Shown one piece after another: positions 6,870-46,881 of a stretch of DNA of 64,000 nt. The position numbers were made by a program, and so were the translations under genes. The stretch lies in the NCBI RefSeq assembly GCF_900172275.1, contig NZ_FWFT01000001.1:1-64000 (forward strand), in the 5' to 3' direction. Position 1 is the first letter of the stretch, and the number at the start of each line of letters is the position of its first letter. The stretch comes from Pseudooctadecabacter jejudonensis. GTDB lineage: Bacteria; Pseudomonadota; Alphaproteobacteria; Rhodobacterales; Rhodobacteraceae. The notes under the pieces were generated by a model. The model saw only the letters and a program-made list of their open reading frames with translations. It did no database searches and was not told where the DNA came from.

Positions 6870-7779
6870 TCTGGGCCTCAGCCTGGGTGATGAAGCGGGC
6901 GTTGCGGGCTCCGGTGTCGTCCTCATCTGCGCGGCTGATGTTCCAACCCACATAGCTGGCGGCCCGCAGCGCCATAAAGAGAGGCAGATGCGGCGTGTCC
7001 AGTGGCCGCAAAGAGGTATAGCCCGCCAGAAGTGCGGCGCGCAGGGCGGGGTAATCGCGGGCCGTCCGATGTTTCAACAGGGCTGTTGCGACATCGAACA
7101 AACGAAAGCCGAAGCCCCCGTCGTCAAAGTCGATGACGTGCAGGGTGTCACCAGACACCATCACATTTGCCGCCACGAGATCAGCGTGGATCAGCCCGTA
7201 GTCAAGGCTGGGCGCGATTTGGGTCAGGTCGTCGCGGGCGCTGTCGCGGAACGCCAACAGGCGCGTCTTTTGGTCCAAGTTCAGCGCGGGATTGTCCCAA
7301 AACCGATCCCAAAGCGGGGCGTGCCCCAAAAGGCCACCCTGATCCCATGCCGGACGGTCGCAAGATATGGCCTGTGGCCAGGCATCAATTGCACTGTGCA
7401 TCCGCGCCATGTCGTGGCCCAGTTGGTGGAACACCTTTTCGCGCTGTGCGGCATCCATCTGGGGCAGGGCGGCATCAAGGGTTTCCCCCTCCAGCCAGGT
7501 CAGAACATCGACCTGCATCCCATCGACGCTGTGCAGATACGTGCCCTCAAGGCTGGCAATGGGCGAAGGAACAGACAGTCCCGCGCGGTCCAGCATCGCC
7601 ATCCAGTCCAGTTCGGCCGCCAGTTCACTGTCCGTCCGGTAGCCCTGACGGTGGAGCCGCAGCGCAAAGCGGTTTTGGCCGTGCTCCACCCTGTAGACTG
7701 CGTTTTCGCGGACGGCGATCAGGGTGATCTTTGCCCCCTCAAGGCCCCATATAGGCAAGGCGTTGGCCGCTGTGTTCAT
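6844..7779 (-). CDS. APH-family small-molecule kinase (hydroxylysine/homoserine kinase-like)
   Basis: The 311-residue aminoglycoside-phosphotransferase-fold kinase has the Brenner-type catalytic loop LIHADLVAANVMVS and the metal-binding IDFDDGGFGF. Its start overlaps the stop of the upstream aminotransferase (ATGA type). In animals and some bacteria a kinase of this type phosphorylates 5-hydroxylysine, and the partner PLP enzyme then eliminates phosphate. The same pair sits here, so an amino-alcohol such as hydroxylysine or ethanolamine is the likely substrate. It is the last gene of the iclR operon. Confidence 0.8.
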   Translation of the reverse strand: MNTAANALPIWGLEGAKITLIAVRENAVYRVEHGQNRFALRLHRQGYRTDSELAAELDWMAMLDRAGLSVPSPIASLEGTYLHSVDGMQVDVLTWLEGETLDAALPQMDAAQREKVFHQLGHDMARMHSAIDAWPQAISCDRPAWDQGGLLGHAPLWDRFWDNPALNLDQKTRLLAFRDSARDDLTQIAPSLDYGLIHADLVAANVMVSGDTLHVIDFDDGGFGFRLFDVATALLKHRTARDYPALRAALLAGYTSLRPLDTPHLPLFMALRAASYVGWNISRADEDDTGARNARFITQAEAQITEYTARL

Positions 7780-32320: not shown

Positions 32321-33817
32321 TCATGTTTGATAATTCGTGCGTCTGTTTTTGATCGACGTCCAAATGATGAATCCTATGACCATGAGGATCACCACGAATA
32401 AGGTGCCCGAAACGGGCCGGTTGATCAGATCAACCGCTGATTTGATTTGCCCCGCGCCAGCGGTCAAACGTTCTACAATGATGGACCCAAGCACAAGGCC
32501 CAGCACAATCGGGACAAGTGGCCAGTCAAGGCGGCGCAGCACGAACCCGATAAAGCCGAAGATAACCGCAAAGATGCAATCCGTCAGGCTGTTGCGGATC
32601 GAATAAACGCCGACGAACGACAAGATCATGATGAACGCGCCCAGAAAACGGTTCGGGATGTAGACCATCTTGGCAATCAGACGTGTTGAAAACAGCAGGG
32701 TGATCAGGACCAACACATTGATGATCAACAGCGCGGTAAACAGGCTGAACAGGAAGTCGGGGTTGTTTTCAAAGATGTCAGGTCCCGGCTTGATCCCAGC
32801 GTCAAAGAACACGACCATCATCATCGCGGTCAGTGCTTCGCCGGGCACGCCCAAGGCCAAAAGGGGGATCATTGCGGCGGCGGGCACCGCGTTGTTGGAT
32901 GTCTCTGATGCGATAAGTCCTTCGGGTGAACCATGGCCGAACCGTGCAGGGTCCTTGGACAAAGACCGTGCCGTTGAATAGCTGAAGAACTGCGCCACGA
33001 ATTCGCCAACACCGGGGATGATGCCCATGATCGTGCCATAGATCGCAGAACACACCGTGATCAATTTGCGCCGAGCGATTTCGCGGAACCCGTTGAGAAG
33101 ACCGCCCGAAATACGGGCCTCGGGCGGGTCATCATCCTTGCCGACCATCAGGTTCAGGGCCTGACTGAGGGCGAAGATCCCGACGATCACCACGATCAGG
33201 TTGAAACCGGAATAGAGGTATTCGATGTCGAAGGTGTATCTGTCGATCTGGCGGGTCGACTGCCGCCCGATCATGGCAATCAGAAAGCCGAACCCGAACA
33301 AAAGCGCCGCAATGCCCATGGTCTGCCGATGTGCGGCAATCAACAACACGCCGCCCAGAATTGCAGCCATCAAGATGTCACGCTGACCAAACAGCGCCCC
33401 AAGATCACGCAGGTATGGTCCAAAGGCGAACAAAGCCAGCAGCGCCATGATGATCGAAAAACAGCCCCCAAAGAATGAGGCAGAATAGGCCAGTGACAGC
33501 GCGCGCGAGGCCTCACCCCGGCGGGTCATAGCGTAGCCGTCATAGGTGGTCAGCGCGTTGACGGGTGTTCCGGGGGTGTTGATCAAAATGGCAGGGACAG
33601 CGCCGCCATACATGGACGACCCATAAACCCCCAAAAGCAAGACAAGACTGACCAGATCATCCAGAAACACCGTGGCGGGCAGCAGGATCGCGATGGCGAT
33701 GGCGGGGCCAATCCCCGGCACCGCACCAATAGCCAAACCACCGACAGACCCGATCAGGATTGCAAGCAGCACGCTGGGTTGCATCAAACTGTCCAAACCT
33801 GTCAGAAACGCCTCCAT
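32321..33817 (-). CDS. tctA: TTT transporter large permease (TctA family)
   Basis: This 498-residue membrane protein has about 12 TM helices and the paired family motifs AIGAVPGIGPA near 32-42 and MGIIPGVGEF near 260, both of the GxxPGxG type. It forms the cation-coupled transport channel. It is 8 bases after tctB and 22 before tctC. Confidence 0.94.
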   Translation of the reverse strand: MEAFLTGLDSLMQPSVLLAILIGSVGGLAIGAVPGIGPAIAIAILLPATVFLDDLVSLVLLLGVYGSSMYGGAVPAILINTPGTPVNALTTYDGYAMTRRGEASRALSLAYSASFFGGCFSIIMALLALFAFGPYLRDLGALFGQRDILMAAILGGVLLIAAHRQTMGIAALLFGFGFLIAMIGRQSTRQIDRYTFDIEYLYSGFNLIVVIVGIFALSQALNLMVGKDDDPPEARISGGLLNGFREIARRKLITVCSAIYGTIMGIIPGVGEFVAQFFSYSTARSLSKDPARFGHGSPEGLIASETSNNAVPAAAMIPLLALGVPGEALTAMMMVVFFDAGIKPGPDIFENNPDFLFSLFTALLIINVLVLITLLFSTRLIAKMVYIPNRFLGAFIMILSFVGVYSIRNSLTDCIFAVIFGFIGFVLRRLDWPLVPIVLGLVLGSIIVERLTAGAGQIKSAVDLINRPVSGTLFVVILMVIGFIIWTSIKNRRTNYQT

Positions 33818-33825
33818 GTGATCCC

Positions 33826-34560
33826 CTAGAAATACGTCAACATGAACGCGCGCGTGGCGTCAGGAAGTTGATCATAAAGCCAAATGTTCAATGGCGTTTT
33901 GATTTGCAGAAACGTGCGAAACGCCAGGACGACGGCGACACTGGATAGGAACCCCGTCATTATCCAGCGGGGGCTGCGATAGCCCAGACGCCATGTCAGA
34001 TAGGTGCCCAAGATCAACGTCGAGACGAGGTAGCCCAGAATGGGCACGATCAGGGTGTAGCCAATAAAATAGGCCACATATTCCAAGGCCGCCACGTATT
34101 TGGTCAGCTCGAAATATGCGCTCGTGGGCAAAAGAAACCGTTTGCGCCATGTGGTTTCTTTCCACGACGCGCGTAAATTCCACAGGGCAGCGGGGACGAG
34201 AATGATCAGGCACAGCAGTGGTGCGACCCATGATTGTTTAACGATCCGGCCCAGACGGGTCACACGGCCTTCGATATCGGCGAGCCCAAATTGATAGGCG
34301 ACGTAGGTTCCCATATCGTCTGGCAGTTTTCTGGCGTCCCAGCCGGTCTGGCTCCCAAAGAACACAAGGAAAAACAAGGCGAGCAAGGCCGCGACGATGG
34401 AGGCCTGAAAATCACCCCGTTTGCGGGAGAAATTGAACAGATCCTCGACTTTGACCTTCTTGTCGGGAGGGCATTCGCTTTGGAAACCGTGGCCTGCCTC
34501 AGCCGGCACGCTTTCATCAAAAAGGTAAAGGTCCGCGCTGGACCCGGCATTGGCCGTCAT
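33826..34560 (-). CDS. tctB: TTT transporter small permease (TctB family), extended
   Basis: A 244-residue protein with a soluble N-terminal region of about 55 residues and four or five TM helices. TctB proteins are usually about 150-170 residues, so this one is enlarged at the N-terminus and middle. The ATG at 34560 is preferred over an in-frame TTG at 34572. Assignment rests mainly on operon position before tctA and on topology. Confidence 0.7.
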   Translation of the reverse strand: MTANAGSSADLYLFDESVPAEAGHGFQSECPPDKKVKVEDLFNFSRKRGDFQASIVAALLALFFLVFFGSQTGWDARKLPDDMGTYVAYQFGLADIEGRVTRLGRIVKQSWVAPLLCLIILVPAALWNLRASWKETTWRKRFLLPTSAYFELTKYVAALEYVAYFIGYTLIVPILGYLVSTLILGTYLTWRLGYRSPRWIMTGFLSSVAVVLAFRTFLQIKTPLNIWLYDQLPDATRAFMLTYF

Positions 34561-34649
34561 CGCACAACCCAATCACGGCGCGCCAAATCATCGAACTGTC
34601 TGCCCAACATCCTTGACCTCCCTCGACAAAGATTAGCGTGTTTTTTGAC

Positions 34650-34663
34650 TTGGCCATGGCCAA
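34650..34663. promoter_or_regulatory. 14-bp perfect palindrome upstream of tctB
   Basis: TTGGCCATGGCCAA is fully self-complementary and lies 90 bases before the tctB start. It is a candidate operator for the TTT operon. No regulator gene is adjacent. Confidence 0.35.
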
Positions 34664-34988
34664 ACCCCAACGGCAGACTGCGAAGAGATAGTTAACATGT
34701 CAAGTATTAATGGCGTGAGCGATGCCCCTATAGGTCTTGCTGGCCCCTCGCATGGCAAATCGACCGGTCGATGTGCTTTGGCATCTCGCCGTGACTGGTG
34801 CAGCGTGGCCCTAGAAGGGGGGATTGGTTTGTCTTTCACGCGTCACGCGCATCCTCTGCATTTGCATTGCGGCAAAACCGACGTAAACACGCCAGACGTA
34901 CATATTGGTGCAGTCAAACCCGTCAGCGTATCGCATCGCATCGGCCCCAAGTTGGAACGCCACTTTGACACAATAATTTCAGAGAGAT

Positions 34989-35005
34989 TTGGCTCCGGCG
35001 GTAGG
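34989..35005. repeat. attL core (tRNA-Asn 3' end duplicate)
   Basis: TTGGCTCCGGCGGTAGG, 17 bp, is identical to 45837-45853. Flanks diverge at once on both sides, as expected for a site-specific recombination core. It contains the complement of the tRNA CCA end and acceptor/T-arm 3' strand. Confidence 0.88.
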
Positions 35006-35141
35006 CAAAAAAACGATATTTCTTGATATGTCCTGTTATGACTAATCTATTAAAATCACTGAACAATCCGACCCTGAATAGGATCAACGCCTAACATCGA
35101 ATATCATGACAGAACGAATTTAATGTCAGATAGGTTGATGG

Positions 35142-36410
35142 ATGCCAAAACAAGCACAAAAACTGAGAGCCACACAAATTGACAGGCTCCGACCCAAACA
35201 TGAGAACAGACCAACAGTCTATCCAGTTGGTCACGTTTCGGGGCTTCATATTCAGATCACGCCGAACAACGCGCGAAGCTGGTTTCTAAAAACTATGATC
35301 GGCACGAAGCGCCGTCACATTGGTCTTGGGTCATGTAGCGAAGTGCTGCTTGGCATGGCCGTGAACGCGGCCCGTGAAGCTAAAGAGCAAATCAGGAATG
35401 GTGTCGATCCTATCGCATTGCGACAAAAGGCTAGGGCGGCTCTGATTGCGGCTGAGGTGAAGGGGCCAACGTTTAGTGATGTGATGGACGCCTACCGTCC
35501 GAGACGGGCTGCTAAGATCACAGCTAAGAACCTCAAGAATTGGGAGGCGGCGTTGAACACCTACGCTGTCCCGACCTTGGGACATTTGCAGGTCGCCGAC
35601 ATTGTTATGCGCGACGTGCTGTCTGTTTTGGAACCCATATGGCTAGAAAAGAACGAAGCTGCGACCAAACTTCAAAGATCAATCCACGACATTCTTGATT
35701 ATGCCATGGTCATGGAAATGCGGACGGGTGACAATCCAGCACGTTACCGTGGCAATTTGCAGATTGTGTTGCCAGAATTTAAGGGCAGCAAAAACTATCC
35801 AACTCTGCAGCTTAAAGATGTTCCGTCTTGGTGGGCTGATTTGTGCGAACAGGACAGCATGGGTGCAAAGGCACTGCAATTCCAAGCTATGACCGCCACG
35901 CGAACAGGGGCCGTTCGCCACGCGACATGGTCAGAGTTTGATTTAGAAGCCGGAATATGGACCGTCCAGCCAGCGCGAGTAGCTTCGAAAATACCCGCCA
36001 AAGACAGGCCGAAAAAGGTGCCACTAACACCTGACATGATTGAGCTGTTGAAAGATTTGCCAAGATACGCCGACAGCGACGTCGTTTTTCATGGGCCAAA
36101 GGGTAAGGCATTGTCAGACGCAACGGCGGGGAAGACAATGCGAATGCAACATGAAGCTAAGGTAGAGATTGACGGTGTCGGTTATGTGGACGGGCATACT
36201 GGTGCCGCTGCTATCCCGCACGGGCTTAGAACTGCCTTCCGCGTTTGGGTGTCTGACGTCTCTGATTATGAAGCTGATCTTGGTGAAATCGCGCTTTGGC
36301 ATAAGCTAGGTTCTAAGACACAACAAGCCTACGACCGTGGTGATATGGTCGAAAAACGCCGCGCGATGATGGAGGATTGGGTGCGGTTTTTGCACGCCTC
36401 GACGTCCTAG
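35142..36410 (+). CDS. int: P4-type tyrosine recombinase/integrase
   Basis: A 422-residue integrase with an N-terminal arm-binding domain (to about 95), a SAM-like core-binding domain (~105-205) and a catalytic domain. Active-site residues visible: Arg in ATRTGAVRHA, HGLR (HxxR), and the Tyr in QQAYDRGD. It inserts at tRNA-Asn, lying 136 bases inside attL. Base composition is lower in GC than the host genes. No excisionase beyond the AlpA-like protein is seen. Confidence 0.95.
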   Translation: MPKQAQKLRATQIDRLRPKHENRPTVYPVGHVSGLHIQITPNNARSWFLKTMIGTKRRHIGLGSCSEVLLGMAVNAAREAKEQIRNGVDPIALRQKARAALIAAEVKGPTFSDVMDAYRPRRAAKITAKNLKNWEAALNTYAVPTLGHLQVADIVMRDVLSVLEPIWLEKNEAATKLQRSIHDILDYAMVMEMRTGDNPARYRGNLQIVLPEFKGSKNYPTLQLKDVPSWWADLCEQDSMGAKALQFQAMTATRTGAVRHATWSEFDLEAGIWTVQPARVASKIPAKDRPKKVPLTPDMIELLKDLPRYADSDVVFHGPKGKALSDATAGKTMRMQHEAKVEIDGVGYVDGHTGAAAIPHGLRTAFRVWVSDVSDYEADLGEIALWHKLGSKTQQAYDRGDMVEKRRAMMEDWVRFLHASTS

Positions 36411-36602
36411 ACGTTAACACCGCGTAACAAGTTAGAACTACCCCTATTTGGAGGGGGTTGACAGCCATGATACGATATGAGTGTTGCTACTATTTTTCAG
36501 CGAATCGGCAACGAGGGAACGGTTTTATAGCCGAATCACCAGATTAGATTGGACGTCTATCTGGATTCCTTTTCGCACTACCCAGAAAGGAAGTCAACAA
36601 AA

Positions 36603-36794
36603 ATGACTTTTCAAAGACAATTGAACTCGGTTGAGCTGCGCGACCGTCTAGGCGGAATTTCAACCATGACCCTATGGCGCATGGGGCAAGATGAAACGCT
36701 CAACTTCCCTGAGCCGTCAAGAATTCGGGGTCGCCGCTACTGGTCTGAGGCCGCTCTTGCGACGTGGATGGAACAGCAAGGGGGCGCGCAATAA
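36603..36794 (+). CDS. AlpA-like helix-turn-helix regulator/excisionase
   Basis: A 63-residue MerR/AlpA-fold protein. ELRDRLGGISTMTLWRM forms the helix-turn-helix, and FPEPSRIRGRRYWSEAALATWM is the signature of the family in P4-like satellites, where it activates excision. The ATG at 36603 has AGGAAG 9 bases upstream; the longer frame from 36549 lacks one. It lies one base before the primase start. Confidence 0.88.
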   Translation: MTFQRQLNSVELRDRLGGISTMTLWRMGQDETLNFPEPSRIRGRRYWSEAALATWMEQQGGAQ

Positions 36795-36795
36795 T

Positions 36796-39015
36796 ATGAC
36801 ATTGCCAGAAAACGCCACCAGCGGCGAAACTAGTGGCGCAATCAATGCAGTGATTGTTAACTCTACCACACCCATAACGCTATCAAAAAAAGGGCAAGCT
36901 GCGCAAAATGCCGCTGAAAGGGGATTTAAGGTTTTTCCATGCAAAAAGGATGGAAAGGAGCCTGCCATTAGTGCGTGGCATAAGTATGCGACGGCTGACG
37001 TCGAACAGGTCCGTAGGTGGTGGACGGACAATCCAAACGCAAACGTCGGCTTGAACTTAAAGGCGTCAGATTTGGTCGCTGTAGATGTGGACAGCTACAA
37101 GCAAGACTGTGAATGGCAAATCTTCTCCGCTGGCTTGGATATTCCCGACACAACGATACAAACCTCTGCAAGAGGCGGCACACATTACATTTTCAAAGCA
37201 CCTTTTGGGGCTGAATACGCTAGCACCGCTTGCAGTGGCGTTGATGTAAAACACAACGGCTATATCCTGCTAGATCAATCTACCTTTCAGGGTGGCACTT
37301 ATGAAATGCAAACCGATTGGGACGATCTATCTGACGCCCCCGATTGGATACCGTTGAAGCAACGCCAAAGGGCCGTTCAAGCCCCTGCTACCGTGTCAAA
37401 GCTGGACCGCGCAAAGGTCATCGGGCTTCTAGATTTGGCTGAAAACAACTTTACGCGCGAAGAATGGGTCAAGATCGGCTTGGCCGCTAAAGGGGTTTGC
37501 GGGAATGAAGCCAGGGAAGCTTTCTTGGGGTTTTCCTACCGCTTTAGCGGCGCTAAAGAGGGTGACCCAGAGAAGCTTTGGGATACTTCATCGCCAGATG
37601 GCAGTTTGTCCGTTGGAACTCTCGTGCATTACCTTGGTGGCGAAGTCGCTACGTTTAACGGTGACGGTCTGAGCGAAGATGCTTTGGCCTTAGAGCTTGG
37701 CCTAATTGGCTGGAATAATGATGCTCGATACGCCGCTGATTTGGGCAGATGGTTTCTTTGGGAAGACGGCATCTGGCGACAAGATACTCTTAAGCGCCAT
37801 ATGACCCAAGTAAGAGAATTCTTACGTGGCAAAGGCGAAAGCTTGTTTGCATATGCGGCCAGAGAGGGAATTGAAGGCGTAGAGCTAGACAAAATAAGAG
37901 CGGCGGTAAAGTCTCTACGTGCTAACAGTAAGGTCCAAGCAGTCGAAACGCTAGCGCGCTCGAATCCCGCAAGTGCAACCTTGTCAGACTATTTTGACAA
38001 AAACCTCACGTTGCTTGGCACCCCGTCAGGAACAATTGACCTCACCACGGGCGATCTAAACGACGCCAAGCGAAAGGACATGATTACAAAGTCGGTTGCT
38101 GTATCGCCTGCACCCGCTGGATCGGTTCCAAAACGCTGGCTGACGTTTTTAGATCGAACGTTTGCAGGGGACGCGGAAAAGATTGCTTTCGTCCAACGTG
38201 CGGCGGGCTATGCGCTCACGGGACTGACAACAGAGCATAAATTGCTTTTTTTCCACGGTAGCGGTCGGAACGGCAAAGGCGTTCTTACAAATACACTTTC
38301 GGGCATTTGGAAGGATTATGCGCGTCAGGCGGCCTCAGAGATTTTTCTAAAGTCGTCGGGGGATAAGCACGCCACGGGTTTGGCAGGGTTGCAGGGGGCA
38401 AGGTTGGTGCTTGGTAGCGAACTACCACGCGGAAAGGTGTGGAATGAGGCGGTTATCAAAGACCTAACAGGTGGCGACAAAATAACCGCACGCTTAATGC
38501 GTCAGGATTTCTTTGATTTTGACCCGCAGTTAACCTTGATGATTTCAGGCAATACACGGCCAGACTTAAATGGCGTCGATGAAGCGATCCGCAGTCGCTT
38601 AGTATTGGTCCCGTTTGACGTGACTATCCCAAAGAATGAACGCGATCCAGATTTAGCGAACAAGCTAAAAGAGGAATGGCCTGAAATTCTACGGTGGTGC
38701 ATTGACGGGTGTTTAGAATGGCGGCGCATCGGTCTGGCTGTCCCTGATTGTATTCAGCAAGCGAGCGATGGTTACTTTGACGATCAGGATTGGTTGGGTC
38801 AGTTTTTAGCCGATGAGACCTCCGACCTACTTGGCGGTTTCGTTTCTAACAGTGATCTTGAACGGCGTTTTGGCAGTTGGTCCGAAAAGAATGGCGCAAG
38901 CGAGGTAACTTTGAACGCCTTAAAGAGTCAGCTAAATGAGCGCGGCTATCCAAATGGGCGAACAAGTAAGGGGCGAGGGATTAAGGGGCTTAAATTGATC
39001 CAAAATGACACATAG
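36796..39015 (+). CDS. prim-pol / D5-type SF3 helicase replication protein
   Basis: A 739-residue fusion. Residues ~30-200 are an archaeo-eukaryotic primase-polymerase domain (AVDVDSY metal Asps, ARGGTHYIF). A PriCT-like linker (NNFTREEWVKIGLA) follows, then a D5_N region (~310) and an SF3 helicase with Walker A GSGRNGKG near 486-493 and sensor-1 SGNTRPDLNG. It should initiate and unwind replication of the element. The ATG at 36796 is used, as the earlier frame start lies within alpA. P4 alpha-type proteins have this layout. Confidence 0.93.
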   Translation: MTLPENATSGETSGAINAVIVNSTTPITLSKKGQAAQNAAERGFKVFPCKKDGKEPAISAWHKYATADVEQVRRWWTDNPNANVGLNLKASDLVAVDVDSYKQDCEWQIFSAGLDIPDTTIQTSARGGTHYIFKAPFGAEYASTACSGVDVKHNGYILLDQSTFQGGTYEMQTDWDDLSDAPDWIPLKQRQRAVQAPATVSKLDRAKVIGLLDLAENNFTREEWVKIGLAAKGVCGNEAREAFLGFSYRFSGAKEGDPEKLWDTSSPDGSLSVGTLVHYLGGEVATFNGDGLSEDALALELGLIGWNNDARYAADLGRWFLWEDGIWRQDTLKRHMTQVREFLRGKGESLFAYAAREGIEGVELDKIRAAVKSLRANSKVQAVETLARSNPASATLSDYFDKNLTLLGTPSGTIDLTTGDLNDAKRKDMITKSVAVSPAPAGSVPKRWLTFLDRTFAGDAEKIAFVQRAAGYALTGLTTEHKLLFFHGSGRNGKGVLTNTLSGIWKDYARQAASEIFLKSSGDKHATGLAGLQGARLVLGSELPRGKVWNEAVIKDLTGGDKITARLMRQDFFDFDPQLTLMISGNTRPDLNGVDEAIRSRLVLVPFDVTIPKNERDPDLANKLKEEWPEILRWCIDGCLEWRRIGLAVPDCIQQASDGYFDDQDWLGQFLADETSDLLGGFVSNSDLERRFGSWSEKNGASEVTLNALKSQLNERGYPNGRTSKGRGIKGLKLIQNDT

Positions 39016-39030
39016 TGACGGTTAATCCTT

Positions 39031-39080
39031 TATCATACGTAGGATGTAACAAATACGACTTTTCTATCCTACGTGCGATA
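39031..39080. repeat. imperfect 15-bp inverted repeat before the packaging module
   Basis: TATCATACGTAGGAT (39031-39045) and ATCCTACGTGCGATA (39066-39080) pair at 13 of 15 positions across a 20-base spacer. There is no T-run, so it is more likely an operator or replication-origin element than a terminator. It lies between replication and head genes. Confidence 0.5.
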
Positions 39081-39125
39081 ATGGCTGAGGCGTCACAAAG
39101 CGTCATCCCCCAATTAAACCAATCG

Positions 39126-39153
39126 CCATGCCCCTGATAATATGCGGGCATGG
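39126..39153 (+). promoter_or_regulatory. hairpin covering the start codon of the first head-module gene
   Basis: CCATGCCC (39126-39133) and GGGCATGG (39146-39153) are perfect 8-bp arms with a 12-base loop. The ATG of the next gene (39150) is inside the right arm. The structure would hide the start codon or act as an operator. Confidence 0.5.
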
Positions 39154-39509
39154 CATATTCATTTGAACAGTTAAAAGACCGCGCTGCTCACCTATTGACC
39201 CATAAACGTATGGGGTCGGTGCAGCTAGCCAAGACAGTCACAACGGCAGGCGCGTCCCCATTTGATCCCCCTAGCACGTCAACAGTGTATCAGGACGTGC
39301 CTGCTGTCGTGGTCGGCGTATCGGCGGATTATGTGACTGCAAACAATCAAGTAAAGTCAACTGACCTGAGCGTCACAACTCTGTTGCCTGACGTATTGCC
39401 AAACTTAGGCGACACCGTGCGCGTGAATGGTCAGGATTTATCAGTCGTTCAAGTTAAAGCAATTCCGCACGGTGAACCCGTCGCGTTGCATATGATTGTG
39501 ACCGTATGA
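39150..39509 (+). CDS. putative head-closure/neck protein
   Basis: A 119-residue protein without a certain family. The C-terminal part (GDTVRVNGQDLSVVQVKAIPHGEP) resembles beta-rich head-tail joining proteins that have a GxxVxV-G-xxxxVxxVxP pattern. It is the first gene of the packaging and head module, and its stop overlaps the next start. No normal Shine-Dalgarno is visible; the start codon lies in a hairpin. Low certainty on function. Confidence 0.6.
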   Translation: MAYSFEQLKDRAAHLLTHKRMGSVQLAKTVTTAGASPFDPPSTSTVYQDVPAVVVGVSADYVTANNQVKSTDLSVTTLLPDVLPNLGDTVRVNGQDLSVVQVKAIPHGEPVALHMIVTV

Positions 39510-39694
39510 GAGACGCTTACAGGGCCATCTTGTCAGCGATACTGTCAGAGGTGGCATTGCTACGCATGGCACTGTGCGTGGCTGTAATAGAGCAGAGCGG
39601 GGCCACCGTAAGCGTTTCTGGGGAGGGGCTAGCACGAGGTGGGGAGTTACCTGTTCTCTCTCCCGAAAATTCCGAAAAAAAATCCAATGACTGA
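39506..39694 (+). CDS. small protein upstream of TerL, possible terminase small subunit or accessory
   Basis: A 62-residue protein overlapping both neighbours (ATGA with the previous stop; its end overlaps the TerL start). It has a helical N-terminus and a charged end. The place is that of a small terminase subunit, but the length is well below the usual 100-180 residues and no helix-turn-helix is recognisable. Function unknown. Confidence 0.5.
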   Translation: MRDAYRAILSAILSEVALLRMALCVAVIEQSGATVSVSGEGLARGGELPVLSPENSEKKSND

Positions 39695-41198
39695 CGCGGA
39701 TAAAGTAATCGAATTCGCCGCGACTTTGAAAATCCCTGAAGGCCCGAAAGCTGGCGAACCGCTTGTCCTTTGCCAATATCAGCAAGCATTTATCCGTGGG
39801 GCTTTAGAGCCTGACACGGAAATGGCAATCCTGACTATTGCACGGGGCAACGCAAAAACCGCTTTGGCGGCTGTCATCGCCTTGGCGCATTTGATTGGGG
39901 TCTATGACACGCAACCGCGCCGCGAAGTTTTGCTTGCCGCGCTGACCCGCGACCAAGCCAAAATCGCTTGGCAATTTGTCTTGGGGTTTTCGGAAAGTCT
40001 GCCCGATGATGTGCAAGAACAACTGACAATACGGCGTGGGTCCAAACTTGAGATAGAATTCAGCGGCCACAACGGCGGCATTGTTAAAGCCTTGGCGGCT
40101 GAGGGAAAAAGCAACCTTGGGTCGGCCCCGACTTTGGTGGTGCTGGACGAATTTGGGTTCTGGTCAGAAACCAAAGGCCGCGAACTAGAGCAATCCTTAC
40201 TGTCGGGCTTGGGCAAACGGGCAGGGCGTGCGTTGATTATTTCAACGTCAGCGCCAAGCGACACGCACCCGCTGTCCCAATTGATAGACAACCCACCAAA
40301 CGGCACCTTTGTTCTGGAATTCCGCGCCCCCGATGGCAAACCCGCTGACGATCTGGACGGTATTCTTGCGGCCAATCCGGGCGCGTCTGAGGGCGTGGGG
40401 TCAAGTGTTGCGTGGCTGCAAAAGCAAGCTGACAGGGCAATCGCACGGGGCGGGTCTGCGCTGACCAGTTTCAGGCTTTTGAACCTCAATCAACGCTTGT
40501 CAGACGAAACCCGCGACATGCTTTTGACTGTGGACCAGTATCTTGCAATCGAAACAGACAAGGTGCCAAAGCGCCAAGGTGATTGCATCATAGGCATTGA
40601 TATGGGCGGCGCGGTAAGTATGTCCTGCGCGGCGTTCTATTGGCCCGAAACGGGGCGTCTTGAATGTTTGGGTGCCTTTGGGTCAGAGCCGACACTTGCA
40701 GCGCGTGGTGAAGCTGACGGGGTAAAGGACCGATACGTCGAGATGAATACACGCGGCGAATTGAAAACCATTGGCGGGCAAGTGGTGCCGATTGCCGCCT
40801 TTCTGCGTGATACGTTGTCCCATGTGGACGGTGAAAATGTCGTGGCGCTGGTCGCGGACCGTTACCGCCAAGCCGAATTCACCGAATCCCTTGTGCAAGC
40901 GGGTATCCGTGTCCCTGTCGTGTGGCGCGGGTTTGGTTTCAAAGACGGGAATGAGGACGCAACAAGGTTCCAGCGGGCTTGCTTTGATGAACAGGTTTTT
41001 ACGGCCCCGTCACTTTTGTTGCGATCTGCCTTTGCCGATGCGGTTTGCCTGCGCGACCCTGCAAACAATATCAAAATCACAAAGGCACGTTCTAAAGGGC
41101 GGATTGATGCGGCGTCTGCAAGTGTCATTGCTATTGCTGAGGGACAAAGGCGCATTGCCCGCCCCGTAAAGGGGGCCACTGTTGTCGGGTGGGTCTAA
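39687..41198 (+). CDS. terL: terminase large subunit
   Basis: This 503-residue TerL has a Walker A-like ARGNAKTALA near 51, Walker B LVVLDEFG, coupling motif STSAPSD, and a C-terminal RNase-H-like nuclease with GIDMGGAVS and distal acidic residues. It pumps DNA into the prohead and cuts it. The ATG at 39687 overlaps the preceding gene; the frame start at 39639 is less likely. HK97-like family (Terminase_1). Confidence 0.93.
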   Translation: MTDADKVIEFAATLKIPEGPKAGEPLVLCQYQQAFIRGALEPDTEMAILTIARGNAKTALAAVIALAHLIGVYDTQPRREVLLAALTRDQAKIAWQFVLGFSESLPDDVQEQLTIRRGSKLEIEFSGHNGGIVKALAAEGKSNLGSAPTLVVLDEFGFWSETKGRELEQSLLSGLGKRAGRALIISTSAPSDTHPLSQLIDNPPNGTFVLEFRAPDGKPADDLDGILAANPGASEGVGSSVAWLQKQADRAIARGGSALTSFRLLNLNQRLSDETRDMLLTVDQYLAIETDKVPKRQGDCIIGIDMGGAVSMSCAAFYWPETGRLECLGAFGSEPTLAARGEADGVKDRYVEMNTRGELKTIGGQVVPIAAFLRDTLSHVDGENVVALVADRYRQAEFTESLVQAGIRVPVVWRGFGFKDGNEDATRFQRACFDEQVFTAPSLLLRSAFADAVCLRDPANNIKITKARSKGRIDAASASVIAIAEGQRRIARPVKGATVVGWV

Positions 41199-41493
41199 GG
41201 ACTATTTTCGCCATTCCAAGAAAGTGACGTCTAGTGCGCGGTGGCGGCGCTTACGGCCCTTAATTTTGAGGCGTGACGACTATGCCTGTGTCAGTTGTGG
41301 GTCTGTCGGACGTCTTGAAGTCGATCACATTGCACCTGTGCGCGACCGTCCAGATTTGGCGTTTGAACCGACTAACCTGCAATCGCTTTGCGCGGGGTGC
41401 CATACCCGCAAAACCCGCTTGGAATGTGGACACAAAGAAGCGTCCCCCGACCGCAAGGCATGGCAAGCGTTGATGCGCTGCCCAATTAGTTAG
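41182..41493 (+). CDS. HNH endonuclease (packaging-associated)
   Basis: A 103-residue HNH nuclease with zinc Cys pairs (CVSC and CAGC), the LEVDHIAPV catalytic His and the NLQSLCAGCHTRKT ending. HNH proteins next to TerL take part in cos cleavage in many HK97-like phages and are a hallmark of cf-PICI packaging modules. The start is TTG at 41182 with AAAGGGGG upstream, overlapping terL by 17 bases. Confidence 0.9.
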   Translation: MSGGSKDYFRHSKKVTSSARWRRLRPLILRRDDYACVSCGSVGRLEVDHIAPVRDRPDLAFEPTNLQSLCAGCHTRKTRLECGHKEASPDRKAWQALMRCPIS

Positions 41494-41551
41494 AACCTGC
41501 GAAACGCGGTAAAATGCCTGCAATTCAACGCAACATTGCATAGGTATTCAC

Positions 41552-42811
41552 TTGCTCGATTCAGTCAAAATCCAAACCCGCCAATCCACTATCCGCCAAG
41601 AACTGTCTGCCCTAGTCGGCAAGGCGGTCCCCGATGCGGACGAGACACGTTCAATTGATGATCTATCAGCCGAATATGAAACCAATGAAAAGCGGTTCCG
41701 TGCGGCGCTTATCTCTGAAGACACGCAACGCCAAGAGGCTAAGGGCGAACTTGATACGCGGTCGGACAAAGAATTCTCCGACATGGTGTCAAAGTTTGAA
41801 CTTCGCCAAGTCGCTTTGCATTTGGACGAAGGCCGCGCCCTTGATGGCGTCACGGCTGAGGTGGTGCAAGAGCTACGTAGCCAAGGCGGTTTCCGTGGCA
41901 CCCCCGTTCCCTATGATGCGCTAGAACAGCGGGCGGGAGAAACCATTGCCAGCGGCACGCCGGACCCCATGACAACGCGCCCTTTGATCGAACGTCTATT
42001 CCCGCAATCCGTCGCGGCGAAAATGGGCGGGTCCATGATCCAGATCGGATCGGGCGAAACTGAATTCCCCGTCACCACGTCCAGCGTCACGGCGTCTTGG
42101 CAGGGTGGTGAGTTGGCCGAAATTGATGGCCCGCAAGCCTATACGACTGTCGATAAGGCGTTGGCCCCTGACAACACGCTTGGCATTCAAATGCGGATTA
42201 GTCGCAAGACCATGAAGCAAAGCGGCGCGGCGCTAGAGCAAGCTGTCCGGCGCGATATGAATGGCGCAATTGCCCAAGAGGTTGATCGTGTCGTGTTCCA
42301 AGGCACGGGGGCAGATGGGCAACCCTTGGGCTTGTTTACGGGTGCCACGACTTACGGCATTGCGCAAACCCCGATTGATGCGGCTGCAAGCTGGTCAGCG
42401 TTTCGCGCGGCTGTGGTTGAATTTATGACCGCGAACGCGGCGTCTGGTCCTAATGCGGTCAAGTTGCTGATGCGCCCTGAGATTTGGGCCGCGCTCGATG
42501 ATGCCTTAACCACTGGCACGGCGGTCAGCGAATGGGACCGTCTGGTCAAAAACATTCCAGCGGGCAACATCGCAATGACGTCTAATGCCTTGGCTGCACC
42601 CGTTGGCGATCCTTTGGCGTCCTCTGCAATCCTGAGCACGAATTCCGGCGGCGTTGCCCCGTTCTTTGTGGGTCTTTGGGGGGCTGTGGACCTTATCCGT
42701 GACCCATATGCCGACGCGGCAAGCGGTGGCTTGCGGCTGACCGCGCTGTCCACAATGGACGTGACTGTCGCCCGTGGTGTCCAATCGCGTATCCTGACGG
42801 GTATCCAGTAA
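41552..42811 (+). CDS. HK97-type major capsid protein
   Basis: A 419-residue gp5-family protein. The N-terminal ~120 residues are charged and helical (scaffolding delta domain, removed by the protease). The shell domain begins near 130 and contains ETEFPVTTSSVTASWQGG, VFQGTGADGQPLGL and a final RGVQSRILTGIQ. TTG start at 41552 gives the expected length. It is encoded before the protease, the reverse of the usual phage order. Confidence 0.93.
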   Translation: MLDSVKIQTRQSTIRQELSALVGKAVPDADETRSIDDLSAEYETNEKRFRAALISEDTQRQEAKGELDTRSDKEFSDMVSKFELRQVALHLDEGRALDGVTAEVVQELRSQGGFRGTPVPYDALEQRAGETIASGTPDPMTTRPLIERLFPQSVAAKMGGSMIQIGSGETEFPVTTSSVTASWQGGELAEIDGPQAYTTVDKALAPDNTLGIQMRISRKTMKQSGAALEQAVRRDMNGAIAQEVDRVVFQGTGADGQPLGLFTGATTYGIAQTPIDAAASWSAFRAAVVEFMTANAASGPNAVKLLMRPEIWAALDDALTTGTAVSEWDRLVKNIPAGNIAMTSNALAAPVGDPLASSAILSTNSGGVAPFFVGLWGAVDLIRDPYADAASGGLRLTALSTMDVTVARGVQSRILTGIQ

Positions 42812-42812
42812 A

Positions 42813-43427
42813 ATGCTGCTGCACGCTGCTGAATTCACCGACTTGGAATTGCGGCGGCGTGACGGCTTTTACAACGTGCGCGGTCGGTTCCCTTACAACA
42901 AACCCGCTGTCTTATCGGACGGCGGGCGAACAGGACGGCCCCGCAAAGAAATCATTGCGCCCCGTGCCTTTGCTTATCGCGTGAACGATCCGGCTGAGGA
43001 CATTCATTTTTTACTAGGCCATTCCTATGACAAACCGCTTGCGTCCAAACTAACGCAAACCCTGTCTTTTGAGGACACGGCGGCGGCGTTGAACTTTGAA
43101 GCCAAAATCTTGCCAGCGGTTGCCGATACGTCCCACGGTGCCGATGCGCTGGCCCTTATTGAAACGGGTTTGGCGGTTGGTATTAGTCCAGGCTTTCGCA
43201 TTCCACCAAAGCGCGCCGTCGCTGAGGCTGAGACGGTTGCCCATGAAGGTATGCGACCAAACGAGGGCGCATATAATGCAATCATTAGAACGGTTTGGCA
43301 GGCGCTCTTATATGAGATTAGCCTCGTGACACGCCCCGCGTATCCAGAAAGCCAAGTCGAAGCGCGATCATGGGACGTTTCTGAATTAGCTTCACCCAAT
43401 AACCCAATGAAAAGGTGGCGTTTATGA
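42813..43427 (+). CDS. HK97-family prohead protease
   Basis: A 204-residue U35-type serine protease with His in FLLGHSYDKPLAS, GISPGF and LYEISLVTRPAYPESQVEAR, the standard C-terminal pattern. It matures the capsid by removing the delta domain. Two bases after the capsid stop; its own stop overlaps the next start. Confidence 0.92.
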   Translation: MLLHAAEFTDLELRRRDGFYNVRGRFPYNKPAVLSDGGRTGRPRKEIIAPRAFAYRVNDPAEDIHFLLGHSYDKPLASKLTQTLSFEDTAAALNFEAKILPAVADTSHGADALALIETGLAVGISPGFRIPPKRAVAEAETVAHEGMRPNEGAYNAIIRTVWQALLYEISLVTRPAYPESQVEARSWDVSELASPNNPMKRWRL

Positions 43428-44017
43428 TGTCTAACGCGTTTGAAGCTACGAACCGAACTGTCATCGAACAAGAGGAAATTTCTACCGCAGTTTATCCAGA
43501 CGCGCCGGACGGCCTCAGCGATGCGGCTGCGGCGCTTTCCAAGGAAATTGTTTGGGATCGTTTGGAACAATTCACCAACTACAAGATTGGCCAACGGTCG
43601 ATCCAGTTTCGGGTTTGCTCGAATCGCGGCCAACCGTGGTGGATACCTGCGGAACGCCCTTTTGAGATTACAGGAATCCTAATCGCTGACACTACGTTAG
43701 ACGACTATGTCGCAACGCCCGTGCGCCCCCGTGCTGACGGTGCTGTAAACCTTGAAGGCAAGGCTGCGCTAGTCACGGCAACGGTAGGGTTGGCAACGGC
43801 CCCGCCATTGTTCCTTGAGGCTTACAAGCGTTTGGCTGAATACTTTGCCGCGTCGCAGATCGGCCCTGAGGGTGTGACCCGTTACAGCTTGTCGGTTGGT
43901 CCTGACATTACTGAGGGCTATTCCAAACAAGCGACCCACACCGCCAAGGCGATGGTGAATTCCGGCGCGGCTGACCTGTTGCGCAAATATAGAAAACTAG
44001 GGGCTGCCCATGTTTAA
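43424..44017 (+). CDS. putative head-tail connector (gp6-like)
   Basis: A 197-residue protein with helical LFLEAYKRLAEYFA and a pattern (ITGILI...DDYV) seen in head-tail adaptor proteins. It lies between protease and portal, where a ring protein closing the portal is expected. The ATG at 43424 has AAAAGG 8 bases upstream and overlaps the protease stop. Family assignment is by position and weak resemblance. Confidence 0.6.
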   Translation: MMSNAFEATNRTVIEQEEISTAVYPDAPDGLSDAAAALSKEIVWDRLEQFTNYKIGQRSIQFRVCSNRGQPWWIPAERPFEITGILIADTTLDDYVATPVRPRADGAVNLEGKAALVTATVGLATAPPLFLEAYKRLAEYFAASQIGPEGVTRYSLSVGPDITEGYSKQATHTAKAMVNSGAADLLRKYRKLGAAHV

Positions 44018-45086
44018 CCCGTTCAAACGCAAAGAAGCTGTGGTCGTGACGCGAAGTCAAAGCGGTTACACCGCTGAGATTATTGGCGCACGGGAAAGCT
44101 ATATCGCTGGGACCCGTGGCCTTGCTGACCTGACGGCGACGGTGCAATCCGCTGTCTCATTATGGGAAGGCGCGTTCACTCTTGCTGACGTGTCTGGAAC
44201 CGACCTGATCGACCGTGCATCCCTTGGTCTTATGGCACGATCATTGGCGTTGCGAGGTGAATGGGTTGCTTACATCACCGACGATGGATTGGTGCAAGCC
44301 TCGGATTGGGACGTGACCACAAAGAACGGCAAACCAACGGCCTACCGTCTGACCATTCCAGAAACAGGTGGGGCGCAAACGGTCACGGCCTTGGCGGGTG
44401 AGGTTTTGCATATCCGTATCGGCTGCGATCCTGCGGCCCCGTATTACGGCACGGCCCCATTGCGCCGCGCGTCACTGTCTGCGGGTCTGTTGCAAACCTT
44501 GGAAACCGCTTTGGCTGAGGTCTATGAAACTGCGCCAATGGGGTCTCAGATTGTGCCATTCCCAGAGGGTCCGGCAAACGATCTTGAAACGCTAGGCCGT
44601 GGGTTTCGTGGCCGTCGCGGGTCTGTCCTGTTGCGCGAATCCGTGGCCGTAACGGCGGCGGGCGGTCCAGCGCCTAGCACCGATTGGAAACCGTCTGACG
44701 TGTCGCCTGACATGCAAAAGACTATGGCGTCCCAAAGTCATGAACATGCAAAGGCGGCAATCCTGAATGTGTTTGGAATTCTGCCCGCGTTGCTGTCCGC
44801 CAATACAACGGGACCACTGGTCAGGGAAGCGCAACGCCACTTGGCAACTTGGGGTCTGCAACCGATTGCCATGCTACTGGCAGAGGAAGCCACCACTAAG
44901 CTAGGTCAGCCTGTCATGGTTGATGTGTTGCGGCCCGTCCAAGCCTTTGACGTAGGCGGTCGCGCAAGAGCGCTGTCCACGATTGTGAAGGCGATGGCAG
45001 AGGCCAAGGCGGCTGGCGTGGAAGGGGCAGACTTTGACAAAGCTCTGACGCTGGTGAATTGGGGGCTAGATGACGGGGTGGGCTGA
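44010..45086 (+). CDS. phage portal protein
   Basis: A 358-residue HK97-like portal. Visible: YYGTAPLRRASLSAGLLQTLE of the clip/stem region, ILNVFGILPALLS, and REAQRHLATWGLQPIAMLLAEEA helices. It forms the dodecameric DNA gate of the capsid and docks TerL. It is at the distal end of the head module, overlapping the connector gene by 8 bases. Somewhat short for the family (about 380-420). Confidence 0.9.
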   Translation: MFNPFKRKEAVVVTRSQSGYTAEIIGARESYIAGTRGLADLTATVQSAVSLWEGAFTLADVSGTDLIDRASLGLMARSLALRGEWVAYITDDGLVQASDWDVTTKNGKPTAYRLTIPETGGAQTVTALAGEVLHIRIGCDPAAPYYGTAPLRRASLSAGLLQTLETALAEVYETAPMGSQIVPFPEGPANDLETLGRGFRGRRGSVLLRESVAVTAAGGPAPSTDWKPSDVSPDMQKTMASQSHEHAKAAILNVFGILPALLSANTTGPLVREAQRHLATWGLQPIAMLLAEEATTKLGQPVMVDVLRPVQAFDVGGRARALSTIVKAMAEAKAAGVEGADFDKALTLVNWGLDDGVG

Positions 45087-45144
45087 GGATACACAAGTTT
45101 AGATTGCAATTGCCACCTGGCATCTAACTCTTTGGAGAACAGCT

Positions 45145-45672
45145 TTGACCGAATTACCTTTTCTAACCTACCTTCAGGCTGGTGGTGAAAACACCCTAGG
45201 ATTCTACGGTGAAGGCTTCCAAGACATGGTTAAGAATGGAGAGGTGCCTTTTTTTGGTGCGCCAGTCGCGCAGCCTAACAGTTCAACGAAACAGTTTTTC
45301 TTCATTGAAGCGGTTATGCTTAGCTGTGCAAGAAATATTACTAGTGAACTTGCAGAGCCTTACGGAACGCAGTTAGCGCGTGCAGTGCAGATTGTTGAAA
45401 CGAATACTGATGTGATAATTGACGCTATCAAGCTGGTCGATACCGGTGCTGAAGCTTGGGTTGAAATTATTGAAGATGAGGTTGGTGGCCGCCTTAAAGT
45501 TTTTCCACGCAATGACACGCGAGTTCAACTTTTTCTCAGCACTTTCCCCCCTGAGGCAAATCCGGAAAAGCCAGTCATGATCGACGTTACGTCGATCATT
45601 AATCACGCTAAGAGTGTAGCAAACGACTTTGGCTTAACAAAACCGGATTTAGACATAGCTAAAAGAGCATGA
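45145..45672 (+). CDS. unrecognised element-encoded protein (candidate cargo)
   Basis: A 175-residue, probably cytosolic, acidic protein that I do not recognise. It starts with TTG at 45145, preceded by GGAGAAC. It is the last gene before attR, the place where satellites carry accessory genes such as anti-phage or helper-interference functions. Composition is more AT-rich than the head genes, suggesting separate origin. No transmembrane segment or known catalytic motif seen. Confidence 0.7.
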   Translation: MTELPFLTYLQAGGENTLGFYGEGFQDMVKNGEVPFFGAPVAQPNSSTKQFFFIEAVMLSCARNITSELAEPYGTQLARAVQIVETNTDVIIDAIKLVDTGAEAWVEIIEDEVGGRLKVFPRNDTRVQLFLSTFPPEANPEKPVMIDVTSIINHAKSVANDFGLTKPDLDIAKRA

Positions 45673-45836
45673 TCTAGAAGAAGTTGGCGGTTAGCAACTG
45701 CCAGCATTCTTTTCCGCAGTGCCACTAGACAACATATTGTTGCAAAAATACAACGAAGTCTTTTTGTCAGATAGATTGTAGGGCGATCAAGTTGTTTTCC
45801 AATAAAACCCTTTAAATCAATGACTTAAGGGGTGTA

Positions 45837-45853
45837 TTGGCTCCGGCGGTAGG
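45837..45853. repeat. attR core within tRNA-Asn
   Basis: The 17 bases match attL (34989-35005) exactly and include the last part of the tRNA gene plus CCA. Integration therefore restored an intact tRNA, with the element on its 3' side. Confidence 0.88.
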
Positions 45854-45912
45854 GATCGAACCTACGACCAATTGATTAACAGTCAACTGCTCTACCGCTG
45901 AGCTACGCCGGA
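45838..45912 (-). tRNA. tRNA-Asn (GTT)
   Basis: Reading the minus strand from 45912: acceptor TCCGGCG, D-arm GCTC..GAGC, anticodon stem GTTGA/TCAAT around CTGTTAA (anticodon GTT), T-arm GTAGG TTCGATC CCTAC, acceptor CGCCGGA, discriminator G and encoded CCA. All stems pair. It is the integration target of the satellite. Confidence 0.97.
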
Positions 45913-45960
45913 AAACCTTCGTCCGTATAGCCATGGGATTTCGGGGCGTCCAGAGGGATT

Positions 45961-46881
45961 TTACGTTTTTTCGACCGTCAGCAGAGAAAATTTTGCCGCT
46001 GCTGAAAGTGCGCCCAAAGGCGCGCAAATATCGCGCTTGGTCAGGTCGATAAGATGCGCCAGAACATTGCGTTCGGCCATAGGCAGGAGGGCGGTGGGCA
46101 CATCGGTATAGATCAATTCCGTCAAGGCCCGCGCGGTTTGCGCGCCCGCCGTCAGTGCTGCGCGAATTTGGTCTTCGCGCGCTGTTCTATGGGCCAAAAG
46201 CGTTTCAATGCGCGCGCTGAGGTCAGCGATGGGTGCGCCGTGCCCGCTGAGACCGGTTTTGGAACCCAGATCTGCGAGGCGGCGGCAGGACGTCATGAAA
46301 TCCGTCAGATCGCCATCGGGCGGCGACACCAATGACGTGGCCCAGCCCATGACCAAATCGCCTGTGAACACGATATCGTCGGTCTCATAACACAGATGAT
46401 TGCCGAAATGGCCGGGGGTGTGCAGGGCTGTGATGGTCCGCCCGCCTGCGGTCAGGGTCTGGCCGTCGCACACTATCTCATCCGGCTCAAACGCGGCATC
46501 GACACCTTCGCCGCCCCCCACGGCCCCCGACACATCCTGCATGATGGCGGATCGGCCCGCATTGCTGTCCCCAAACGCCAACACTGGTGCGCCGGTGATG
46601 CGGGACAGGTCGCGGGAGAGGGGGCTGTGATCAAGGTGGCTGTGGGTCACAAGGATGTGGGTCACGGGGCGCCCACGGATCGCGCGCAGCAAAGCGTCCA
46701 GGTGGGGGGCGCTTTGGGGACCAGGGTCGATCACGGCGACGGTGTCTGTCCCTAAAAGATAGGTGTTCGTGCCCCAATAGGTCATGGGTGAAGGGTTGGG
46801 GGCCAGCACACGGACCACGCCTTTCGCTACCGTTTCGGGCACACCGGGCTGGGGCGCGGTTGTTGGGGTGGGGGGCTGCAT
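45961..46881 (-). CDS. MBL-fold metallohydrolase (LACTB2-like)
   Basis: A 306-residue glyoxalase-II-like MBL protein. The zinc motif THSHLDH has H80, H82, D84 and H85; HTPGHFGNHLCY and VFTGDLVMG supply the later ligands. The C-terminal ~90 residues form a winged-helix-like domain as in LACTB2, an endoribonuclease-like relative. The ATG at 46881 is used since the upstream extension of the frame (to 47061) is antisense to the kinase gene. Substrate unknown. Confidence 0.88.
   Translation of the reverse strand: MQPPTPTTAPQPGVPETVAKGVVRVLAPNPSPMTYWGTNTYLLGTDTVAVIDPGPQSAPHLDALLRAIRGRPVTHILVTHSHLDHSPLSRDLSRITGAPVLAFGDSNAGRSAIMQDVSGAVGGGEGVDAAFEPDEIVCDGQTLTAGGRTITALHTPGHFGNHLCYETDDIVFTGDLVMGWATSLVSPPDGDLTDFMTSCRRLADLGSKTGLSGHGAPIADLSARIETLLAHRTAREDQIRAALTAGAQTARALTELIYTDVPTALLPMAERNVLAHLIDLTKRDICAPLGALSAAAKFSLLTVEKT

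Follow-up and report, generated by a model that had tools for sequence, protein, structure and literature searches.

A probable capsid-forming phage satellite with a distinct capsid at a tRNA-Asn gene of Pseudooctadecabacter jejudonensis, and its relatives in Alphaproteobacteria

Capsid-forming phage-inducible chromosomal islands (cf-PICIs) are described as satellites that carry genes for a capsid, a protease, a portal, connectors, both terminase subunits, an HNH endonuclease, AlpA and a replication protein, that average 14 kb in length, that have capsids in three clades, and whose main hosts are enterobacteria, several Gram-positive groups and Pasteurella (PMC10690885, PMC10448857, PMC10803314, PMC11389934). 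Analysis of a 64,000-nucleotide stretch of the Pseudooctadecabacter jejudonensis genome (RefSeq assembly GCF_900172275.1, contig NZ_FWFT01000001.1, positions 1 to 64,000; hereafter the window) revealed an island of 10,865 bp at positions 34989-45853 that is very likely an integrated, probably functional capsid-forming phage satellite, which would make its own small head and borrow tails. Like the cf-PICIs EcCIEDL933 and EcCI2 of Escherichia coli and relatives, the island encodes its own capsid, protease, portal, connectors, large terminase (TerL) and HNH endonuclease, together with AlpA and a replication protein, and it would leave the tail to a helper (PMC10690885, PMC10448857). It differs in size, as the family to which it belongs measures about 10.3 kb against the 14-kb average, and in its alphaproteobacterial hosts, which are not among the main cf-PICI hosts named in PMC10803314.

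The island is flanked by exact 17-bp repeats (TTGGCTCCGGCGGTAGG; Table 1), the sole direct repeat of at least 11 nt when positions 33001-36600 were compared with 45501-46100. With up to two mismatches allowed, exactly two copies were found in the window, compared to 0.01 expected from shuffled sequence, and an intact tRNA-Asn gene has its 3' end within the right copy. These bounds bear out an earlier sequence-only reading of the window, which had described a 10.85-kb segment bounded by attachment (att) sites. GC content in 1-kb bins is 0.47-0.59 within the island and 0.55-0.65 outside, and all recognised island genes lie on the plus strand. An IMG/VR record of 10,531 bp (L039) encodes proteins identical to those of the island in every case tested, and thus the island has already been catalogued as a viral contig. 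Two congeners carry additional fragments that match the 3' side of the window tRNA-Asn and are perhaps att scars of other islands; G296 has four, of 48-55 bp, and G297 has one, of 55 bp.

Every gene named in the sequence-only reading was recovered with Pfam or PHROG, or in the case of the connector-like protein by predicted structure, and two further genes were found, encoding a head-closure protein and an orphan open reading frame (ORF) of 175 aa (Table 1). The evidence for AlpA is weak in the window alone; counterparts 35-47% identical are encoded at six related loci, and seven accessory proteins of relatives match phrog_66, the AlpA family, some more strongly than the window protein. A profile made from six head-closure proteins matched the stopper gp12 of PDB 10lj at 1.7e-5. 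The adaptor had no match in Pfam or PHROG, but its predicted structure, with a predicted local distance difference test score (pLDDT) of 83.7, resembles neck proteins of phages and gene transfer agents (GTAs). The predicted capsid fold (pLDDT 70.3) matched HK97, encapsulin, cf-PICI and GTA shells equally well. Likely start codons of AlpA, the prim-pol protein and TerL were inferred from the ORF translations.

Table 1. Features of the island and its integration site (window positions).
Feature	Position	Strand	Evidence
attL, 17-bp repeat	34989..35005		exact duplicate of 45837-45853
Tyrosine integrase, 422 aa	35142..36410	+	Arm-DNA-bind_3; Phage_int_M 5e-20; Phage_integrase just under cut-off; phrog_1 2.6e-30
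AlpA-like excisionase/regulator (ORF open from 36549, likely ATG 36603)	36603..36794	+	phrog_66 0.0017
Prim-pol / D5-type helicase replication protein (ORF open from 36691, likely ATG 36796)	36796..39015	+	Prim-Pol 1e-29; D5_N 3e-17; DUF5906 8e-9
Head-closure (stopper, Hc1) protein	39150..39509	+	phrog_161 5.6e-8
Small ORF, 62 aa, directly before terL; candidate small terminase	39506..39694	+	without Pfam or PHROG match
Large terminase TerL (ORF open from 39639, likely ATG 39687)	39687..41198	+	phrog_9 6e-58; profile matches PDB 6z6d terminase 1.7e-51
HNH endonuclease	41182..41493	+	PF01844 4e-9; phrog_144 3e-23
HK97-fold major capsid protein, predicted N-terminal helical region ahead of shell domain	41552..42811	+	PF05065 (Phage_capsid) 1.6e-16; phrog_617 1e-18
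Prohead serine protease (S78)	42813..43427	+	PF04586 (Peptidase_S78) 4.8e-15
Neck adaptor (connector)	43415..44017	+	predicted structure
Portal protein	44010..45086	+	PF04860 8.8e-11, slightly above cut-off
Orphan ORF, 175 aa, possible cargo	45145..45672	+	without Pfam or PADLOC match; best PHROG 0.069
attR, 17-bp repeat at tRNA 3' end	45837..45853		repeat search and ARAGORN
tRNA-Asn (GTT), integration target, intact	45838..45912	-	ARAGORN

Among the window proteins no tail, lysis or CI-type repressor gene was recognised with Pfam or PHROG, as the sequence-only reading had stated, and in the att-bounded relatives described below no such genes could be recognised for tail or lysis functions next to the head module. 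The 40 larger ORFs that follow the portal gene in 20 elements, including the window, matched 21 PHROG families, none of them annotated as tail or lysis and 12 without an assigned function. Those 12 families favor the idea that the island is a small virus, podophage-like or tail-less, that is autonomous and independent of a helper, its tail or lysis proteins being unrecognised among the unknown ORFs at the right end, and isolated tailed phages of 11.6-14.5 kb have indeed been reported (PMC7762592). We regard such a virus as unlikely: the 175-aa ORF of the window, present in its own genome alone among the 295 sampled from the family, plus the IMG/VR copy, is an orphan and not a common tail gene; the roughly 0.75 kb between the portal gene and attR was judged insufficient for tail and lysis genes; and the adaptor and head-closure proteins point to docking with a separate tail. 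Elements of about 10.3 kb would have no room for a tail module.

None of the 50,697 phage records searched was a close match, and no tailed phage with this head was found among them. TerL was at most 30% identical in the 30 listed of 137 matches, and all 29 capsid matches were 23-31% identical except for one phage (two records), which reached 35% across one third of the query. Relatives of the capsid are encoded by 496 IMG/VR stretches; the best 80, among which intact and similar loci are favored, are on contigs no longer than 15,237 bp, so that none of these 80 is on a contig longer than 15.5 kb, compared to 13 of 80 for the capsid of a control Roseobacter phage (Fisher p 1.4e-4).

Relatives of the island occur in other genomes of Rhodobacteraceae. 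The capsid was matched at E<=1e-5 in 39 of the 295 same-family genomes and at an identity of at least 56% in 29, including its own, with values of 56-67% in the 28 others. From these genomes 32 stretches were fetched, of which 29 could be oriented on the capsid for a repeat search and 20 were given bounds; the other nine oriented loci had no credible repeat or reached a contig edge. Of the 20 bounded loci, 16 have a repeat copy at a tRNA gene that ARAGORN predicts (Asn, Cys, Phe, Glu, Ser, Arg, Lys or Thr), and in two (L063, L071) the repeat looks tRNA-like with no gene called. The block that the sequence-only reading proposed to look for at tRNA-Asn in related strains sits mostly at tRNA genes, of which tRNA-Asn is one among several. 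The remaining two loci (L043 and L044, left repeats at 6953 and 7099) use an attachment site other than a tRNA gene, their left copy overlapping a serC leader RNA. The same holds for the left repeat of L151 (repeats at 6771 and 17629), one of the named loci introduced below, whose right repeat coincides with a second, weaker serC leader match.

A scan of a species-genome collection yielded 215 relatives, of which the best 80, again favoring intact and similar ones, are referred to here as named loci; they overlap in part with the family genomes. Candidate repeat pairs were found in 51 of the 80, and after removal of six without a tRNA, three of 13 nt at a transfer-messenger RNA, and one judged spurious (L155), the 41 remaining tRNA-linked pairs delimit elements of 9,367-11,731 bp (median 10,304, s.d. 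449). In the 47 named loci longer than 19 kb, terL, hnh and the adaptor were found 47 times each, the protease and portal 46 times, the integrase 42 times, and head closure 19 times with the three queries used. The gene order terL-hnh-capsid-protease-(adaptor)-portal is constant in loci with the whole module, and the position of the integrase varies, some relatives having it at the left end like the window and others at the right end. Relatives keep the head module but exchange integrases, replication genes and attachment sites, which is the pattern that a roaming satellite should produce. The ratio of nonsynonymous to synonymous substitution rates (dN/dS) has medians of 0.13 for the capsid, 0.10 for TerL and 0.09 for the portal (from 1,612, 1,418 and 615 non-independent pairs), calculated from 159, 151 and 131 segments after 0, 2 and 4 with stops had been set aside; because these loci are best matches, broken copies are under-represented. 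The head genes of the family are under purifying selection, and this selection together with the narrow size range agrees with what is expected of a genome whose length is limited by its capsid.

Other members of the family broaden this picture. A second, distant lineage, represented by two tail-less elements of about 10.4 kb with the same layout (L070, L071), has capsids 31-36% identical to that of the window and is integrated at tRNA-Thr (L070) or at a tRNA-Asn-like repeat (L071); six IMG/VR records (L261-L266) encode relatives of the L070 capsid and are likely its kin, and in a 34.3-kb record of this lineage a 10,374-bp repeat-bounded element lies among other genes. Two family elements or two capsid copies occur in one genome or bin in two cases (L052 and L065 in G094; L078 and L079 in Roseovarius SP300). 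One relative, in Gemmobacter serpentinus HB-1 (L109), is a 10,436-bp contig with a 96-bp terminal repeat, consistent with a circle of about 10,340 bp, and a coverage of 941 in its title; it had no match to any integrase query used and may represent the satellite in an extrachromosomal, plasmid-like state.

Several observations weigh against the interpretation of the island as a functional, tail-borrowing satellite. No empty site was found for the element: 11 of 16 matching congeners were fetched, and all retained the tRNA and the right flank, but the left-flank gene tctB had no match in the ~2-7 kb fetched on that side, where one congener has a tctA homologue (31%). No helper tail was identified in the genome with the tape-measure family PF10145, an insensitive test that also misses the genome's own GTA; the sole other PF05065 capsid in the genome is that of the GTA. 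One relative has a weak match, below cut-off, to an HK97-gp10-like 'putative tail-component', and the PHROG scans of accessory ORFs (77 and 84 ORFs) covered the best 25 of 50 and 25 of 84 families, in which isolated rare matches would not show. In the IMG/VR scan with TerL, two of 80 contigs exceed 15.5 kb. The longer, of 23.7 kb, is the satellite joined to another island; the shorter, of 18.3 kb, carries a gene for a 2,221-aa RHS-repeat protein next to the satellite, and a weak endolysin-domain match (0.0055) is taken as part of that protein. PF10145, with the insensitivity already mentioned, had no match in these two records or in the 34.3-kb record. Small terminases diverge quickly, and none was recognised with Pfam or PHROG in the window or among the candidate upstream ORFs tested in relatives, so that the label 'complete' given in the sequence-only reading is not borne out. 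One named locus (L144) lacks protease and portal matches. Finally, three of the 29 family elements have broken or truncated head genes (L066-L069): in G110 TerL is in two frames owing to a frameshift and a deletion crosses capsid and protease, in G262 the capsid lacks residues 1-168 and TerL is missing, and in G252 TerL is truncated and the capsid lies at a contig end. The partial capsids L066-L068 were examined separately from the repeat and gene-order analyses.

Such damage would be expected if the island were the remnant of an ordinary prophage, now decaying after loss of the genes for tail, lysis and repressor, since a phage-type head with integrase and replication genes but no tail or lysis genes is what a deletion would leave behind. 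This explanation is very improbable, as the same tail-less architecture occurs at different tRNA genes within a narrow size range, the 159 capsid segments from best-match loci have no stops and a dN/dS of about 0.1, and no long contig with this capsid was seen among the best 80. The head genes of the window are open, and the capsid segments without stops show that inactivation of the head genes is not general among the relatives, a minority of which is damaged; the earlier argument against random prophage decay is upheld to this extent.

The distribution of the family also bears on whether it is mobile. Named hosts in Rhodobacterales include Roseovarius, Ruegeria, Rhodobacter, Rhodovulum and Sulfitobacter, and those grouped outside that order are Jiella, Aurantimonas, Mesorhizobium, Hyphomonas, Ponticaulis, Sphingobium and Citromicrobium; one named locus labelled Oceanospirillaceae is a 6.3-kb contig of a metagenome bin. 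In a sample of the phylum, 6 of 398 genomes matched at E<=1e-20, all labelled as the same genome, family or class. A capsid tree with 81 rows requires 12 changes of the order label, the minimum possible being 4, and its starred branches force at least six changes for Rhodobacterales and at least three for Hyphomicrobiales, which is not in itself proof of transfer. The window capsid groups with that of Jiella mangrovi, from another order, with modest support (88/82). The equal resemblance of the predicted capsid to encapsulins, GTA and cf-PICI shells might suggest a domesticated head-only device, a capsid-like compartment or GTA-like particle that serves the host and is not transmissible. We find this the least credible of the alternatives: the integrase, att sites at many tRNA genes and patchy presence in family genomes indicate mobility, TerL and the portal are under selection, order labels are scattered on the capsid tree, and a separate GTA is already present in the genome.

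The comparison with cf-PICIs made in the sequence-only reading holds for architecture, an own head with no recognised tail, and the capsid appears to be of a different lineage. The island capsid profile (A3) had no match at E<=10 to the EcCI2 capsid chain 9gyi, the one solved cf-PICI capsid compared, whereas the GTA capsid of the same genome matches 9gyi at 2e-44, in agreement with a report that places cf-PICI and GTA capsids on a single branch (PMC12846349). This contrast suggests that the family probably took its capsid from a source other than the cf-PICI/GTA branch. The nearest solved capsid is that of vB_Dshs-R4C (PDB 8gta), titled a siphophage, which at 5.8e-8 was the sole significant sequence match among solved structures, with a best stretch spanning just 111 profile positions. 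The island would work like a cf-PICI and can be regarded as a variant, assigned to this group by its architecture.

Other known systems fit less well. GTAs are fixed clusters with head genes followed by genes for their own tail, and they are not known to have att sites or an integrase. The GTA cluster of this genome (L074, G000:C13:138000-157900) is of the Rhodobacter capsulatus type, its capsid matching that of the R. capsulatus GTA at 3.5e-177; the island, by comparison, has an integrase, att sites and no recognised tail, its capsid and adaptor have no detectable sequence similarity to the GTA, and its protease matches at 2.7e-4. Classical PICIs, including the Staphylococcus aureus pathogenicity islands (SaPIs), have no capsid genes and use or remodel the helper capsid, whereas the island has its own capsid and TerL. 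The Streptomyces satellites MulchRoom and MiniFlayer are similar to it in encoding capsid and packaging genes (PMC10690885), and differ in having virulent helpers, terminal repeats, a scaffolding gene and other hosts. Vibrio phage-inducible chromosomal minimalist islands (PICMIs) are likewise small marine satellites with an integrase, AlpA and a DUF5906-type primase, and differ in that they are without packaging genes and integrate at fis (PMC10803314). In literature searches on cf-PICIs and on alphaproteobacterial or rhodobacterial capsid-forming satellites, no title or abstract opening among the matches listed describes the family. The published version of a protein-language-model study reportedly has a capsid protein anchoring globally widespread viral elements, which may be this family or another. 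No description of this family was seen in the preprint of that study (PMC10187409).

The presence of a GTA raises the question of whose tails are used. The satellites could take tails from the GTA of their host, and not from an infecting phage, and assemble T=3 heads of the HK97 type, although we consider this combination unlikely. A GTA-type capsid (E<=1e-60) was found in 28 of 29 satellite genomes and in 204 of 266 without a satellite (p 0.009, ancestry uncontrolled), the predicted structure of the window adaptor most resembles a GTA neck chain, and two relatives have head-closure proteins with similarity to the presumed stopper of the GTA over 32-34 residues (9e-9 and 8e-5). Arguing against GTA tails, window-type adaptor and head-closure profiles had no match to GTA proteins. 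As to head size, one model predicts genomes of 11.8 kb (8.1-17.1) for T=3 and 13.2-24.5 kb for T=4, and its authors describe a T=3 HK97-type head as a missing architecture among small tailed phages; the median of 10.3 kb fits the former and falls below the latter range, but the satellite P4, with 11.6 kb, makes T=4 shells (PMC7762592).

If the island is a satellite with an own head and borrowed tails, its cycle might proceed as follows. Excision would follow induction by a helper phage, or by a different signal relayed by the AlpA-like protein, and the prim-pol/helicase would replicate the excised circle. The capsid and protease of the element may then assemble a small head sized for about 10-11 kb, into which its TerL, with the HNH endonuclease, would package the element self-specifically. 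Its adaptor and head-closure proteins would seal the neck and accept the tail of the helper, and lysis by the helper would release the particles.

The island indicates that satellites that make heads and borrow tails are not limited to enterobacteria and Gram-positive bacteria. The occurrence of a lineage with a distinct capsid in 29 of 295 sampled family genomes, and in other alphaproteobacterial orders, suggests that a capsid was recruited into a satellite independently. The family offers a natural system for asking how the head of one element fits the tails of another, and it is a candidate for very small HK97-type capsids. Some of the short viral contigs that are counted as phages may be satellites.

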